Source: Thermocoleostomius sinensis A174
GTDB taxonomy: Bacteria > Cyanobacteriota > Cyanobacteriia > Elainellales > Elainellaceae
NCBI RefSeq assembly: GCF_026802175.1
Contig: NZ_CP113797.1
Coordinates: 3,263,026-3,327,025 of the forward strand
DNA: 64,000 bases
Reading direction: 5' to 3'
Shown: in pieces, positions 37,091 to 44,745 of the stretch
Layout of the letters: every line of letters begins with the position of its first letter
Numbering within the stretch: the stretch's first letter is position 1
Notes under the pieces: generated by a model
Told to the model about the DNA's origin: nothing
The model's database searches: none
Seen by the model: only the letters and a program-made list of their open reading frames with translations
Made by a program: the position numbers and the translations under genes

Positions 37091-37692
37091 AAGCTCTGAA
37101 TGATTAACCGTGTTATTAGGTAGAGGACACTATAGACAAGCTAGACAAGCTAATTGGGACAATCGACACCGATCGCAGAGAGACCGCAGTGACGAACCGC
37201 TAAAAGATAAACCAGCTAAACTCTCTGGGGAACATACGGATATTGAATTGATACCTCTGCGTTGCCGCCACGCCACTGTCATAGCTTGCGTCTAGCACCC
37301 TACCATCCGTATTCCGCTTTCGTTAAGTTTGCTGGACTACACGAAGCATTAAGACTGTGTGAAGTGATACAGTTTTGTCTCCAAGGTCGGATCGATGCCA
37401 GCGAAACGTCATGATTTCTGTGACAAATGTGACTTGATTAACCGATCGGACTCTGATACTGTGGAGCGTTAAGGCTATCTTGCTTTAAGAGGTGGATAGC
37501 CCGGATTCCTGGAGGCAGAATAAGCGCTGGAAAGGGAGAGCACCACCAATCCCTAACCAGCTAACCTCTTAACCTGTGCATAGCAGGCGAGAGGCTAGGC
37601 TCATTGTAGTCCTAGTCTGTCTCAACTTGCTTCCTTGCAAAAGGGGGCTGTCTCTAGGTTTTCCTCTGCATATCCTAGAGGTCTAAAATCTC
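37091..37692. other. Long spacer carrying the structured leader of the small gene at 37693
   Basis: The first 370 bp look unstructured and should contain promoters for the nuclease gene (leftward) and the small gene (rightward). From about 37473 the DNA is packed with hairpins that form the leader described separately. Confidence 0.6.
37473..37680 (+). promoter_or_regulatory. Structured 5' leader RNA, copy 1 (candidate riboswitch)
   Basis: Successive helices are: 37473-37479 with 37495-37501 (GGCTATC/GATAGCC); P2, 37526-37530 and 37533-37537 with 37550-37554 and 37557-37561; P3, 37565-37569 and 37573-37576 with 37584-37587 and 37590-37594, loop TGCATAG; P4, 37595-37599 with 37611-37615 (CTAGG/CCTAG); P5, 37652-37658 with 37674-37680 (CTCTAGG/CCTAGAG). 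P5 buries AGAGG, the only ribosome-binding-like sequence before the ATG at 37693. The 3' arm of P4 can instead pair with the 5' arm of P5, which would free it. P2-P4 recur before the paralogous gene at 44263 with compensatory changes. Confidence 0.72.
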
Positions 37693-37947
37693 ATGCCACA
37701 ATTTATGTCGTTTGACTCCGACGAGTCTAGTTTTGTGTTGCCATCAGCCCGTCATCGCGAGTCCGTCAAGCTGATTTTGATTGGTAAACCAGAACCCGTG
37801 ACGATCGTGATTGCCAGCTTGCAAGTGAAGGGGTTCACCGATGCGGGCAACTGGTCGCGTCCATTGCAACCACCCGAAACCACCGAGGCCTTGGCGCGAT
37901 CGGTGGGTGAAGTCATGCGGGTCTATAAGCACTACGTCAGCTTGTAA
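37693..37947 (+). CDS. Small cyanobacterial protein, copy 1 of a paralogous pair
   Basis: This 84-residue soluble protein belongs to no named family I know. After a Ser/Asp-rich start it has VKLILIGKPEPVTIVIASLQ, GFTDAGNWSRPL and an end GEVMRVYKHYV. The product of the gene at 44018-44263 shares the pattern VK..IG.PE.V...IA.L...GF....NWSR.L...GE.MR.YK.YV. I read it as a small alpha/beta fold. Both genes lie behind the same structured leader, so they are probably controlled by the same signal. Confidence 0.75.
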   Translation: MPQFMSFDSDESSFVLPSARHRESVKLILIGKPEPVTIVIASLQVKGFTDAGNWSRPLQPPETTEALARSVGEVMRVYKHYVSL

Positions 37948-38107: not shown

Positions 38108-38296
38108 ATGAGTATTGAAGATCGAGCTAATGCTGTTGCCAAAAACATCGAAGGTAAAGTCCAAGAAGCCGTTGGTAATCTAACTGGCGACACGAAAACC
38201 AAGAGCGAAGGTCAAGCCAAGCAAGCAGAAGCAGCAGCCATGCATGCTGTAGAAGATGTCAAAGATACAGCAAAAGACATCGTCGATAAAGCGTAA
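38108..38296 (+). CDS. CsbD-family stress protein
   Basis: This 62-residue, highly charged helical protein starts MSIEDRANAVAKNIEGKVQE and continues AVGNLTGDTKTKSEGQAKQA, the CsbD-like pattern. Members are small, abundant, stress-induced proteins of unknown mechanism. A strong AAAGGAG ribosome binding site lies seven bases before the ATG. A perfect palindrome follows the stop at once. Confidence 0.9.
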   Translation: MSIEDRANAVAKNIEGKVQEAVGNLTGDTKTKSEGQAKQAEAAAMHAVEDVKDTAKDIVDKA

Positions 38297-38353: not shown

Positions 38354-39355
38354 TCAATTTAGGGTCAGCGATGCAATCGTAGATGGGTGGGTTGGAACAA
38401 TGACGCGCAGTGCTTGCTTGACCGCTTTCATTGTGACAGGCAATTCGCCGATCGGTTGTCCATCCACATGAACTGGCAGTTTTGCCCGTGCAGACAGGCG
38501 CACTTCTGCCACCCGATAGGTTTCAATTTTGGGGTTATAGTGGTGTTGTCCTAAATTAATTGACCAGAAATGACGCAACAATTCCCATTTGCTGAAGTTA
38601 CGAAATACGCTAATGGTGAGTAATCCATCATTCAGTGCAGCATCTGGCGCAACGGTAAATCCACTGCCATAGTATGGCCCATTGGCTATGACAACTAATA
38701 ACGCTAAGCGCTGCAACTCGTATCGTTTTGCAGCAAGGCGTTGCCACAACCTGCGTTTTGTGGGGTGGGTCGTCAAATCAGCAACATAGCGAGCCTCAGC
38801 GATCGATCGATCAAATCGCATCCGGATGCGCTTAGGCTGATAGTTCAACGTCAACGTAACCACTTGCCAGAGCCGTTGCCACCGTCCCCCCTTAATTTCT
38901 TCACCCAACGGAAATAGTACTGCATCCAGCCCAACCCCTGCCGCCTCAAAAAAATAGTGCTGGTTATTAGCAACGCCTACATCAATGCTCACAATTTGCC
39001 CATGAATCACGACTTGGCAGGCATCCATGATCTCGAGGGGAAGGTTCAAGCTATGAGCAATGTTGTTGTACGTACCGATCGGTAAAATTCCTAGTGGCAT
39101 GGAGGTGTGTAACAAGCCTTTGGCCACTTCGCTCACGGTTCCATCACCACCTGCCGCAATTACCAAATCATAGGCTTGGGTCAATGCTCGTTGCGCCAAG
39201 GTTTTTGGAGAAGTGCCGGATTCCGTTAAAACCACGTCTGTGGTAATCCCCCCCGATTGCAGAGCCGAGACGATCGACGGCAACTGCTCCACGTTCACGG
39301 GGTCATCTCCGACAGTACCCGATGTCGGATTTACAATTAAACAGGCCCGCCGCAT
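38354..39355 (-). CDS. Diacylglycerol-kinase-type lipid kinase (YegS/BmrU family)
   Basis: This 333-residue protein has the DAGK catalytic fold: IVNPTSGTVGDD at the N-terminus, the ATP-site motif AAGGDGTVSEVAKGL, and LGILPIGTYNNIAHSLNLP, as in bacterial YegS-like lipid kinases. The C-terminal half holds FEAAGVGLDAVLFP and the beta domain ending in LPVHVDGQPIGELPV. It phosphorylates diacylglycerol, sphingosine-like or related lipids; the substrate is not known. I chose the ATG at 39355 with GGAGG five bases upstream, rather than the GTG at 39367. Confidence 0.9.
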   Translation of the reverse strand: MRRACLIVNPTSGTVGDDPVNVEQLPSIVSALQSGGITTDVVLTESGTSPKTLAQRALTQAYDLVIAAGGDGTVSEVAKGLLHTSMPLGILPIGTYNNIAHSLNLPLEIMDACQVVIHGQIVSIDVGVANNQHYFFEAAGVGLDAVLFPLGEEIKGGRWQRLWQVVTLTLNYQPKRIRMRFDRSIAEARYVADLTTHPTKRRLWQRLAAKRYELQRLALLVVIANGPYYGSGFTVAPDAALNDGLLTISVFRNFSKWELLRHFWSINLGQHHYNPKIETYRVAEVRLSARAKLPVHVDGQPIGELPVTMKAVKQALRVIVPTHPSTIASLTLN

Positions 39356-39687
39356 CACACCCTCCACAACTACCTGAAACTAGTTCACTGGAACGGCACA
39401 GACCTCTCTGTAGACCGATAGGTAAGGTAGACTGACTGCTTGCTAGTTTGTCTAGACTTAAGCTTTGCCTCCTTCAGTGTAGCGTGTGTGCCGAATGCAC
39501 TATTAGACAGACCAACTAGGCGATCGCCCCTCTCCTCTCGTTGCAGTGGCATAATTAAGAACTGCTTATGCAAATTCCCAGAACTTCTTCTATGTCGCAA
39601 CACCGTGTAACAAACCTGGCAACGGTATACTAAGGCAGGAGGTTCTGCTAAGAATCTTCACACAGTTGATCGCCTATTGCGGGAAAC

Positions 39688-44017: not shown

Positions 44018-44263
44018 CTACCGATCGACATAGCGCTTGTAAATCCGCATAATCTCTCCGGGTTCTCGCACCGTGGCTTGTTGAATCTGGGCATAGGGCA
44101 AGGCCCGTGACCAGTTTTCCACCCGGCAAAACCCGCAGTGGTACAGATGGGCGATTGTGTGCTCCACATCCTCCGGTTGTCCAATCATCAGAATTTTGAC
44201 GGCGCGGCGCTTAGTTCTGATCGATCGTGTATCTTCTGATGGAATATCAATGAAGTCAGCCAT
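44018..44263 (-). CDS. Small cyanobacterial protein, copy 2 of the paralogous pair
   Basis: This 81-residue protein is the relative of the product at 37693. It has VKILMIGQPEDVEHTIAHLY, then GFCRVENWSRAL and PGEIMRIYKRYV. Two cysteines (CGFC) are absent from the other copy. The ATG at 44263 has AGGAG eight bases upstream. The gene points toward copy 1, with csbD, the kinase gene, ndhAIGE, nadK and tRNA-Lys between them. Its function is unknown. Confidence 0.78.
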   Translation of the reverse strand: MADFIDIPSEDTRSIRTKRRAVKILMIGQPEDVEHTIAHLYHCGFCRVENWSRALPYAQIQQATVREPGEIMRIYKRYVDR

Positions 44264-44745
44264 AGTGAAAACTCCTAGTTTCGGTAAGGAAACTAGAAGC
44301 TAAATTCGATTCACCATTGCAGCAGGATCTGTCAGCTAGATGAGATAATCTCTTCTAGCCTTAGACCGGCTATGCCCCGGTTTAAGGTTAGCTGGTTAGG
44401 GTCGCTGCGAACTTCCCTAATCAGCGCTCCTAGAATTCAGCTTCTAGGTAGTTTGCTGTTTAGATGACAGCTACCTTTGATAGAAGAAAAAGATAGCCTT
44501 GACTTCTGAGGCTATCACTTTGCCGTGTAATAATCAAGCGCTTTCAAGCAGGAGCACATGAACTATGTACGAACCACTGCTGCGGGATATCTACGCGCTC
44601 AGTTGAATGCTATCAATACCGTCTGACCTCAAGCCCTCAATAGAAAATCTTTGGCGAGCTATTGGGAGGTGGCGTATTGCACGGCAAAAGCTCCATCTCT
44701 ATTCTCATACCCGCTATCCTGATGGTGTAGAAACGTAGCCTGACC
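44264..44745. other. Spacer with leader copy 2 and a further hairpin
   Basis: Besides the leader, GATAGCC at 44492-44498 pairs with GGCTATC at 44510-44516, and on the minus strand this stem is followed by TTTTTC. It could end transcripts that enter from the right, or be the upstream helix of the leader. At 44558-44626 a 22-codon plus-strand frame (MNYVRTTAAGYLRAQ...) has an AGGAG four bases upstream but no known relative. Confidence 0.5.
44272..44425 (-). promoter_or_regulatory. Structured 5' leader RNA, copy 2 (candidate riboswitch)
   Basis: Read on the minus strand, 44425 to 44272. P2 is 44422-44425 and 44415-44418 with 44398-44401 and 44391-44394 (GCTG..AGGG / CCCT..CAGC). P3 is 44383-44387 and 44377-44380 with 44366-44369 and 44359-44363, loop GGCATAG. 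P4 is 44354-44359 with 44335-44340. P5 is 44289-44296 with 44275-44282 (CTAGTTTC/GAAACTAG). The 3' arm of P5 takes in the first two bases of the AGGAG site at 44272-44276. CTAGAAG in the P4 5' arm can pair instead with CTTCTAG at the start of P5. Confidence 0.72.

Follow-up and report, generated by a model that had tools for sequence, protein, structure and literature searches.

Loop changes set incompatibility in the antisense RNA systems that control plasmid copy number, which include ColE1 and IncF in addition to pIP501, and among the chromosomal Sib RNAs the target recognition domains vary between paralogues. The Ibs/Sib genes of Escherichia coli occur in several chromosomal copies (five in MG1655), and their antisense RNA has recognition domains (PMC4147584). 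YUNR loops in sense or antisense RNAs speed pairing, some such systems lack them, and two loop pairs are needed together in RNAII/RNAIII of pIP501 (PMC6562991). In cyanobacteria, msoT1/msoA1 of Microcystis aeruginosa was called the phylum's first type I candidate by its authors in 2025, who sought membrane-protein candidates only (PMC12390103). Here we describe a leader RNA at positions 37473-37680 of a 64,000-nucleotide stretch of Thermocoleostomius sinensis A174 DNA (contig NZ_CP113797.1, positions 3,263,026 to 3,327,025; hereafter the window), lying between a likely sense promoter and an 84-aa open reading frame (ORF), together with a second copy at about 44256-44514 on the minus strand ahead of a homologous ORF (44021-44263). 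It belongs to a large family of putative RNA switches found before dozens of closely related small cyanobacterial genes, and from sequence comparison nearly every copy's loop pair looks like an address for its own antisense RNA.

Like Ibs/Sib, the family has several chromosomal copies and recognition domains in a (here predicted) antisense RNA; it differs in that Sib spans the ibs coding region and its ribosome-binding site, whereas the antisense RNA predicted here spans only the upstream leader, and in that toxicity of the cyanobacterial small protein is only putative. It differs from Hok/Sok and Ldr/Rdl, whose sequences were compared via Rfam only, in that, among 7-nt loops, the U-turn motif is about equally common in sense and antisense and in that loop combinations are copy-specific. 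U-turn loops are shared with pIP501, and the plasmid copy-control systems as a group are set apart by the tens of loci per genome and the proposed translational read-out through sequestration of the Shine-Dalgarno (SD) sequence seen here. With msoT1/msoA1, the family has in common a cyanobacterial small gene with a cis-antisense RNA (again predicted in our case), whereas msoA1 lies antisense to the 3' end and the toxin is predicted to have two membrane helices.

BLASTN with the leader finds five places in its own genome, itself included, each ahead of an ORF of the same small-protein family, and a profile of the small protein gives 27 matches in that genome and matches in 31 of the 36 genomes of the order, with up to 68 per genome. 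The core AGCTAACCT stands upstream of the homologous ORF in all 24 own-genome copies that were fetched (of the 27 protein matches), and a covariance model of the core finds leaders in 22 of the 36 genomes, the three richest having 54, 35, and 22 matches and the own genome 20. Both window copies are recovered by a covariance model from which they were left out, copy 2 at 48.1 bits and copy 1 at 26.7 bits (E 2.6e-4). These results place the leader beyond chance and bear out the proposal of a first-pass annotation of the window that copy 1 is a shared, structured cis-regulatory leader, with further copies before homologous ORFs elsewhere. The covariance model R1 was made from sequences cut at their ATTnTA match, with seven leaders lacking a clean match dropped and 17 of the 30 kept leaders entering the alignment; at E 0.01 it misses L040-L042 and L007, though their layout is visible by eye. 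Eighty of the leaders are the best-scoring listed matches of five genomes. Stricter filters were applied to 386 genomes sampled evenly across the phylum, of which 2 gave the RNA and 32 the protein. Leader L206, from another family, has the same layout by eye and scores 28.6 bits (E 8.6e-5), so the phylum search, with its stricter filters, may underestimate the spread beyond the order; it is the only one of 20 other-family loci, with 330 upstream bases each, in which the leader RNA can be seen by eye. A literature search (open-licence PMC papers, among the matches listed) found no description of this leader family.

The loops of hairpins P2 and P3 (loops 1 and 2) are hypervariable within this core. 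In genome G025 (18 copies fetched of 22 matches), the mean pairwise difference is 0.585 in loop 1 and 0.481 in loop 2. On the same measure the remaining 90 core columns give 0.006, and third positions of the ORF codons 0.145 (11 of 16 copies of the main ORF type). All 18 copies carry their own loop pair. Combinations of loop 1 and the P3 segment among the parsed fetched copies are distinct in 18/18, 32/32, 14/14, 9/9, 8/9, and 16/19 cases in the six genomes with more than one parsed copy, and some loop 1 words pair up with several loop 2 words, and vice versa. So far we count 64 distinct loop 1 words, from 106 of 115 copies, and 50 loop 2 words. The nine unparsed copies are window copy 1, a divergent member with a first loop of 12 nt against a parsed range of 6-8 nt, four own-genome copies with larger loops, and four mis-anchored copies of G011. 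Pairing of loop 1 with loop 2 inside one copy was considered and dropped, as no complementarity is visible by eye.

Loop 1 obeys a rule with reverse-complement symmetry. Either the loop or its complement carries U-N-R at positions 2-4 in 60 of the 64 words (sense 39, antisense 21, both 0, neither 4), compared with a mean of 17.5 (standard deviation 3.5) and a maximum of 34 in 20,000 shuffles; counted by copies the figure is 101/106, and in genomes with more than three words it is 23/23, 15/15, 10/10, 6/6, 9/10, and 5/7. YUNR itself occurs in 40 of the 42 distinct 7-nt loops (sense 21, antisense 19). Among the first 58 words, later T/R offsets give counts of 9 and 11. A rule that holds for the loop or its complement is the requirement expected of two complementary partner loops, and a U-turn loop in one of two predicted partners, as found here for loop 1, is a common, though not universal, feature of cis-antisense genes.

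A candidate start for such a partner lies on the opposite strand. Immediately 3' of P3, an unselected alignment of 30 sequences has columns A, T, T, n, T that are invariant or nearly so, and the pattern was first seen there, before the ATTnTA-cut model R1 was made; with the following A these columns read TAnAAT on the opposite strand. In 91 leaders the letters of this antisense -10 box are T 78, A 91, n, A 75, A 84, and T 90, and TAnnnT occurs at the exact antisense offset in 24 of 29 non-redundant leaders, compared with at most 5 at any other offset (copy 1 itself lies outside the alignments behind both counts). The P4 stems around the box vary, as judged by eye. A cis-antisense RNA over the leader, started from the P4 -10 box, is what this conservation would suggest.

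The alignment of 91 leaders (90 distinct) was fitted to model R1, and so leans towards it, and does not include L040-L042, L052, L059, L206, and L007. Within it, 91.6% of pair cells are standard pairs, both sides change in 11 of the 20 pairs, and the covariation score is 0.226, where shuffled alignments give 0.091 (none of 500 as high) and slid structures no more than 0.112, so the fold has covariation support; the count of further pair types shows no excess (22 vs. 21.7). Helix P1, in which the arm directly 5' of P2 pairs with an arm ahead of the SD region, scores at least 10.5 in all 44 non-redundant leaders (of 85), with a mean of 14.8 vs. 7.8 for shuffled sequences, and its sequence differs between groups with pairing retained (by eye). 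The helix that hides the SD averages 10.6 vs. 7.4 when shuffled. In the window copies the 3' arm of P1 overlaps the anti-SD strand, making the P1 and SD pairings mutually exclusive, and in folding models P1 is in competition with the hiding of the ribosome-binding site in several groups. For copy 1, the successive hairpins upstream of the 84-aa ORF with their double-stemmed P2 and P3, and AGAGG (37677-37681) as the ribosome-binding-like site before the ATG at 37693, are present as first annotated. Of the two-state layout proposed in that annotation, the hiding of the SD stands, whereas the main competitor of the SD hairpin is the helix 37508-37518/37648-37658 and not P4. Folding of copy 1 gives the P1 state as the minimum (-85.7 kcal/mol), with the SD-hairpin state 3.8 kcal/mol higher at -81.9.

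We think it fairly probable that translation is shut off by a cis-antisense RNA that makes kissing contacts with the private loops and opens P1, after the manner of type I toxin-antitoxin or plasmid copy-control RNAs. The leader would be the 5' region of an mRNA under translational control by a cis-encoded antisense RNA that starts at the P4 -10 box and runs back across P3 and P2. Its two hairpins would meet those of the mRNA through kissing at loop 1, driven by the U-turn, and at loop 2, after which the contact would spread to a duplex that takes up the 5' arm of P1. When the antisense RNA is absent, P1 would hold the anti-SD strand in the window copies, or compete with the SD hairpin as a pseudoknot in the 66-aa subfamily, leaving the SD readable; when it is present, the SD would be sequestered. 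With tens of related copies per genome, each would need its own loop pair, hence the hypervariability. In modelled structures, masking the leader from the 5' arm of P1 through to the antisense start makes the SD less accessible in 33 of 37 leaders (the mean drops from 0.22 to 0.09; two leaders without a recognizable SD were dropped), masking P2-P3 alone leaves it at 0.22, and AGAGG of copy 1 goes from 0.21 unpaired when free to 0.06 when masked. These modelled falls, which are not uniform, support a switch worked by antisense binding through release of the anti-SD strand.

More tentatively, and with more doubt than belief, the whole could be a chromosomal RNA address system, in which a small gene disperses to tens of copies with private antisense RNAs and loops rewritten by some process, loop 1 always staying U-turn-competent, much like dozens of plasmid incompatibility groups in one chromosome. 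If antisense control is true, cyanobacteria, whose first type I candidate dates only from 2025 (PMC12390103), would harbor a large gene family under antisense control and, with 64 first-loop and 50 second-loop words, a natural collection of kissing-loop pairs. The U-turn rule for antisense recognition, known from a few systems, would become testable on many natural variants, and the question arises of how loops change while the surrounding core stays near-identical.

Several observations weigh against antisense control as we picture it. Four of the 37 leaders, all from the own genome and with 81-82 aa ORFs (L036, L037, L040, and L042), show no fall in SD accessibility, several of the falls are trivial, with the SD of window copy 2 (L058) at about 0 in both states, and the free-state mean is itself just 0.22. 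The SD helix is weak in G010, where 17 of 18 leaders score below 10, close to the mean of shuffled sequences. No -35 signal precedes the antisense -10 box (3.0 matches vs. 2.82, standard deviation 0.15), copy 1 has no consensus promoter match at its P4 box, the sole antisense-direction match of copy 2 lies inside the ORF (44025-44053, plus strand) and not at the P4 box, and no antisense terminator was found at either window copy. Copies with the same combination exist (L043/L050/L051, L048/L054, and L148/L149), leader stretches outside the core also vary, one of which directly adjoins P1 on its 5' side while others precede the SD, and some loops of the same genome are mutually reverse complementary (L160 and L162), so cross-talk through loop 1 is possible. 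Loop 2 obeys the U-turn rule far less, in 21 of 50 words vs. 11.9 shuffled (standard deviation 2.9), a mild excess. The rule was worded after the loops had been inspected, the YUNR motif itself being already known; of the first 58 words, 38 have T at 1 with R at 3, compared with 54 that have T at 2 with R at 4, and 43 show the stricter YUNR form.

The gene and its leader recur together as a dispersed unit. Among the own-genome copies with a 66-aa ORF of the MTGEWN type (L043-L055), identity between the promoter region and the end of the ORF is mostly 86-97%, and 99.6% for L050/L051; the unit, of about 505 bp, has a fuzzy left border and, in several cases (among them L044, L045, and L047), unrelated flanks. 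Integron-integrase remnants adjoin 6 of the 24 fetched own copies on the upstream side: a near-full-length integrase (TIGR02249, 397 bits, one TAG) lies just upstream of one unit, and five other units have upstream deleted integrase copies with a similar internal gap (G000:C1:445621-446559 and L060-L065 taken together). Integron attC sites were considered and rejected, since no attC-like site is visible by eye at the stop codon, where each unit ends. Comparison with a sister genome revealed an empty site at one of three loci, with flanks 28 bases apart, and none at the two others. There the extra block (L082:662-2302), about 1.6 kb with the unit and both-orientation copies of a short repeat common across that genome, is absent from the sister genome; given its size and the other repeats, the empty site is no proof of the unit's own mobility. 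The unit may have spread by self-movement or by another spreading or homogenizing process such as gene conversion. Among side observations, integrase-like scraps seem to precede units in other genomes too (L013 and L018, by eye), and in L060, L062, L064, and L065 the longer duplicated block with the deleted integrase starts at a shared CTAACTAC; this sequence and a GTAGTTA some 50 bases farther along make up an inverted repeat.

The first-pass annotation saw in the two-state layout what a translational riboswitch or leader would need, and noted a resemblance to part of the ydaO (c-di-AMP) riboswitch in a short shared text, CAGCTAACCTC, without equating the two. Rfam gives no ydaO match even at E 10: the single match in the window is a tRNA, the leader has four sub-threshold hits at E up to 10, and ydaO, Cyano-1, Cyano-2, and the glutamine riboswitch are not among them. 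We reject ydaO or another known riboswitch on this Rfam search, which agrees with the annotation's placing of the leader outside known classes. A metabolite- or ion-binding translational riboswitch, with the invariant CCAGCTAACC core binding the ligand and the loops drifting freely, would fit the strong core conservation and the SD control. Against it, the leader has no Rfam match and the ORFs match no curated protein family. Drift explains neither the G025 loops, whose differences are 80-100 times those of the other core columns and three to four times those at third codon positions, nor the symmetric loop 1 rule; taken with the conserved opposite-strand -10 box, these features point to an antisense RNA, and we regard a ligand riboswitch as improbable. 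We hold it slightly less improbable, and still unlikely, that the loops act in trans, each leader pairing with other copies' leaders or antisense RNAs or with other mRNAs in a network. Nine loop-word pairs are mutually reverse complementary and eleven words occur in at least two genomes, as a network would have it, whereas the near-uniqueness of loop combinations among parsed copies favors private pairing and the cis antisense -10 box is conserved.

IS110 bridge RNA loops act as guides to DNA targets, and a mobile element whose RNA loops do the same would account for near-identical units of about 505 bp between several unrelated flanks, the empty site, and the two variable loops. Loop matches are in weak excess in the flanks (15 of 500 shuffles reach it), a figure for which the copies used were related and the loops came from an early parse that was wrong in part. 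Against membership of that group, no recombinase gene was found in the element, whose unit ends at the stop codon of its 66-84 aa ORF, the only one it holds and of an unknown family, and neither the U-turn rule nor an opposite-strand -10 box would be expected of guides; we consider this the least probable of the alternatives. A full type I toxin-antitoxin system, in which the small protein under the same antisense control is a toxin, is compatible with antisense control and extends it, and we rate it as a possibility on the doubtful side. Small, multi-copy genes suit it, as do divergent XRE or ribbon-helix-helix (RHH, CopG-like) genes near other-family relatives at 10 of the 26 loci examined; such regulators are frequent in addiction and copy-control modules. 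In contrast to most type I toxins, the protein has no apparent membrane helix (by eye, with no prediction run), five members have no PADLOC match at E 1, and any toxicity is putative.

Within the window, the features of both copies are listed in Table 1. The layout TTGATT-17-TAnnnT of the likely sense promoter can also be seen by eye in leaders L036 and L040 and in copy 2, and a consensus promoter scan gave no match for that of copy 1. Hairpins like the 5' one of copy 1 are present in relatives too (by eye). GATAAT of copy 2 is offset by two bases from the aligned place in its close relative L036.

Table 1. Positions of leader features and small ORFs in the two window copies.
Feature	Positions	Strand	Basis
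Copy 1 sense promoter, TTGATT - 17 nt - TACTGT	37434-37462	+	inferred; letters checked
Copy 1 5' mRNA hairpin (GGCTATC / GATAGCC)	37473-37501	+	sequence
Copy 1 P1 5' arm, CCTGGAGGCAG	37508-37518	+	helix search, folding
Copy 1 P2 hairpin (GCTGG aa AGGGA / TCCCT aa CCAGC); base CCAGC / GCTGG conserved	37526-37561	+	
Copy 1 loop 1, 12 nt; reverse complement starts UUGG (YUNR)	37538-37549	+	
Copy 1 P3 hairpin (CCTCT..CCTG / CAGG..AGAGG)	37565-37594	+	
Copy 1 loop 2, TGCATAG	37577-37583	+	
Copy 1 P4 hairpin; antisense -10 within its loop	37595-37615	+	by eye
Copy 1 antisense -10 box, TACAAT	37603-37608	-	letters read; conservation from relatives
Copy 1 predicted antisense RNA, minimal extent	37508-37596	-	inference
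Copy 1 P1 3' arm / anti-SD strand, CTGTCTCTAGG	37648-37658	+	
Copy 1 SD strand, CCTAGAGGT; pairing partner 37650-37658	37674-37682	+	
Copy 1 84-aa ORF, small-protein family	37693-37947	+	
Copy 2 sense promoter, TTGATT-17-TAGCCT	44509-44537	-	
Copy 2 P1 5' arm	44433-44447	-	
Copy 2 P2; loop 1 TTCGCAG at 44405-44411	44391-44425	-	
Copy 2 P3; loop 2 GGCATAG at 44370-44376	44355-44390	-	
Copy 2 antisense -10 box, GATAAT	44344-44349	+	
Copy 2 P1 3' arm, overlapping anti-SD 44292-44301	44293-44307	-	
Copy 2 SD strand	44270-44279	-	
Copy 2 small ORF, 81 aa	44021-44263	-	

The small protein has no match over the curated Pfam or NCBIfam cut-offs. In PHROGs nothing scores better than E 0.05, and among solved structures there is no relative with a better value than E 0.6. 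At 18 of the 26 loci of other families a divergent open frame is present, and the ten of these 18 that were scanned, chosen for their DNA-binding look, comprise six with helix-turn-helix matches (that of L222 below cut-offs) and four with RHH matches, suggesting one gene family controlled by exchangeable regulators. Variation in the small ORF itself includes about ten extra residues in L145, L151, and L183, at the place corresponding to which L104 has a 30-base stretch that recurs often in the sister genome G033, like a small dispersed repeat. In G025 (L160-L176), several small ORFs run beyond the usual end (LVR) into differing C-terminal tails. The neighbors of copy 1 are ordinary, namely a gene for a CsbD-like protein (38108-38293) and a YegS/diacylglycerol-kinase-type gene (38354-39367).
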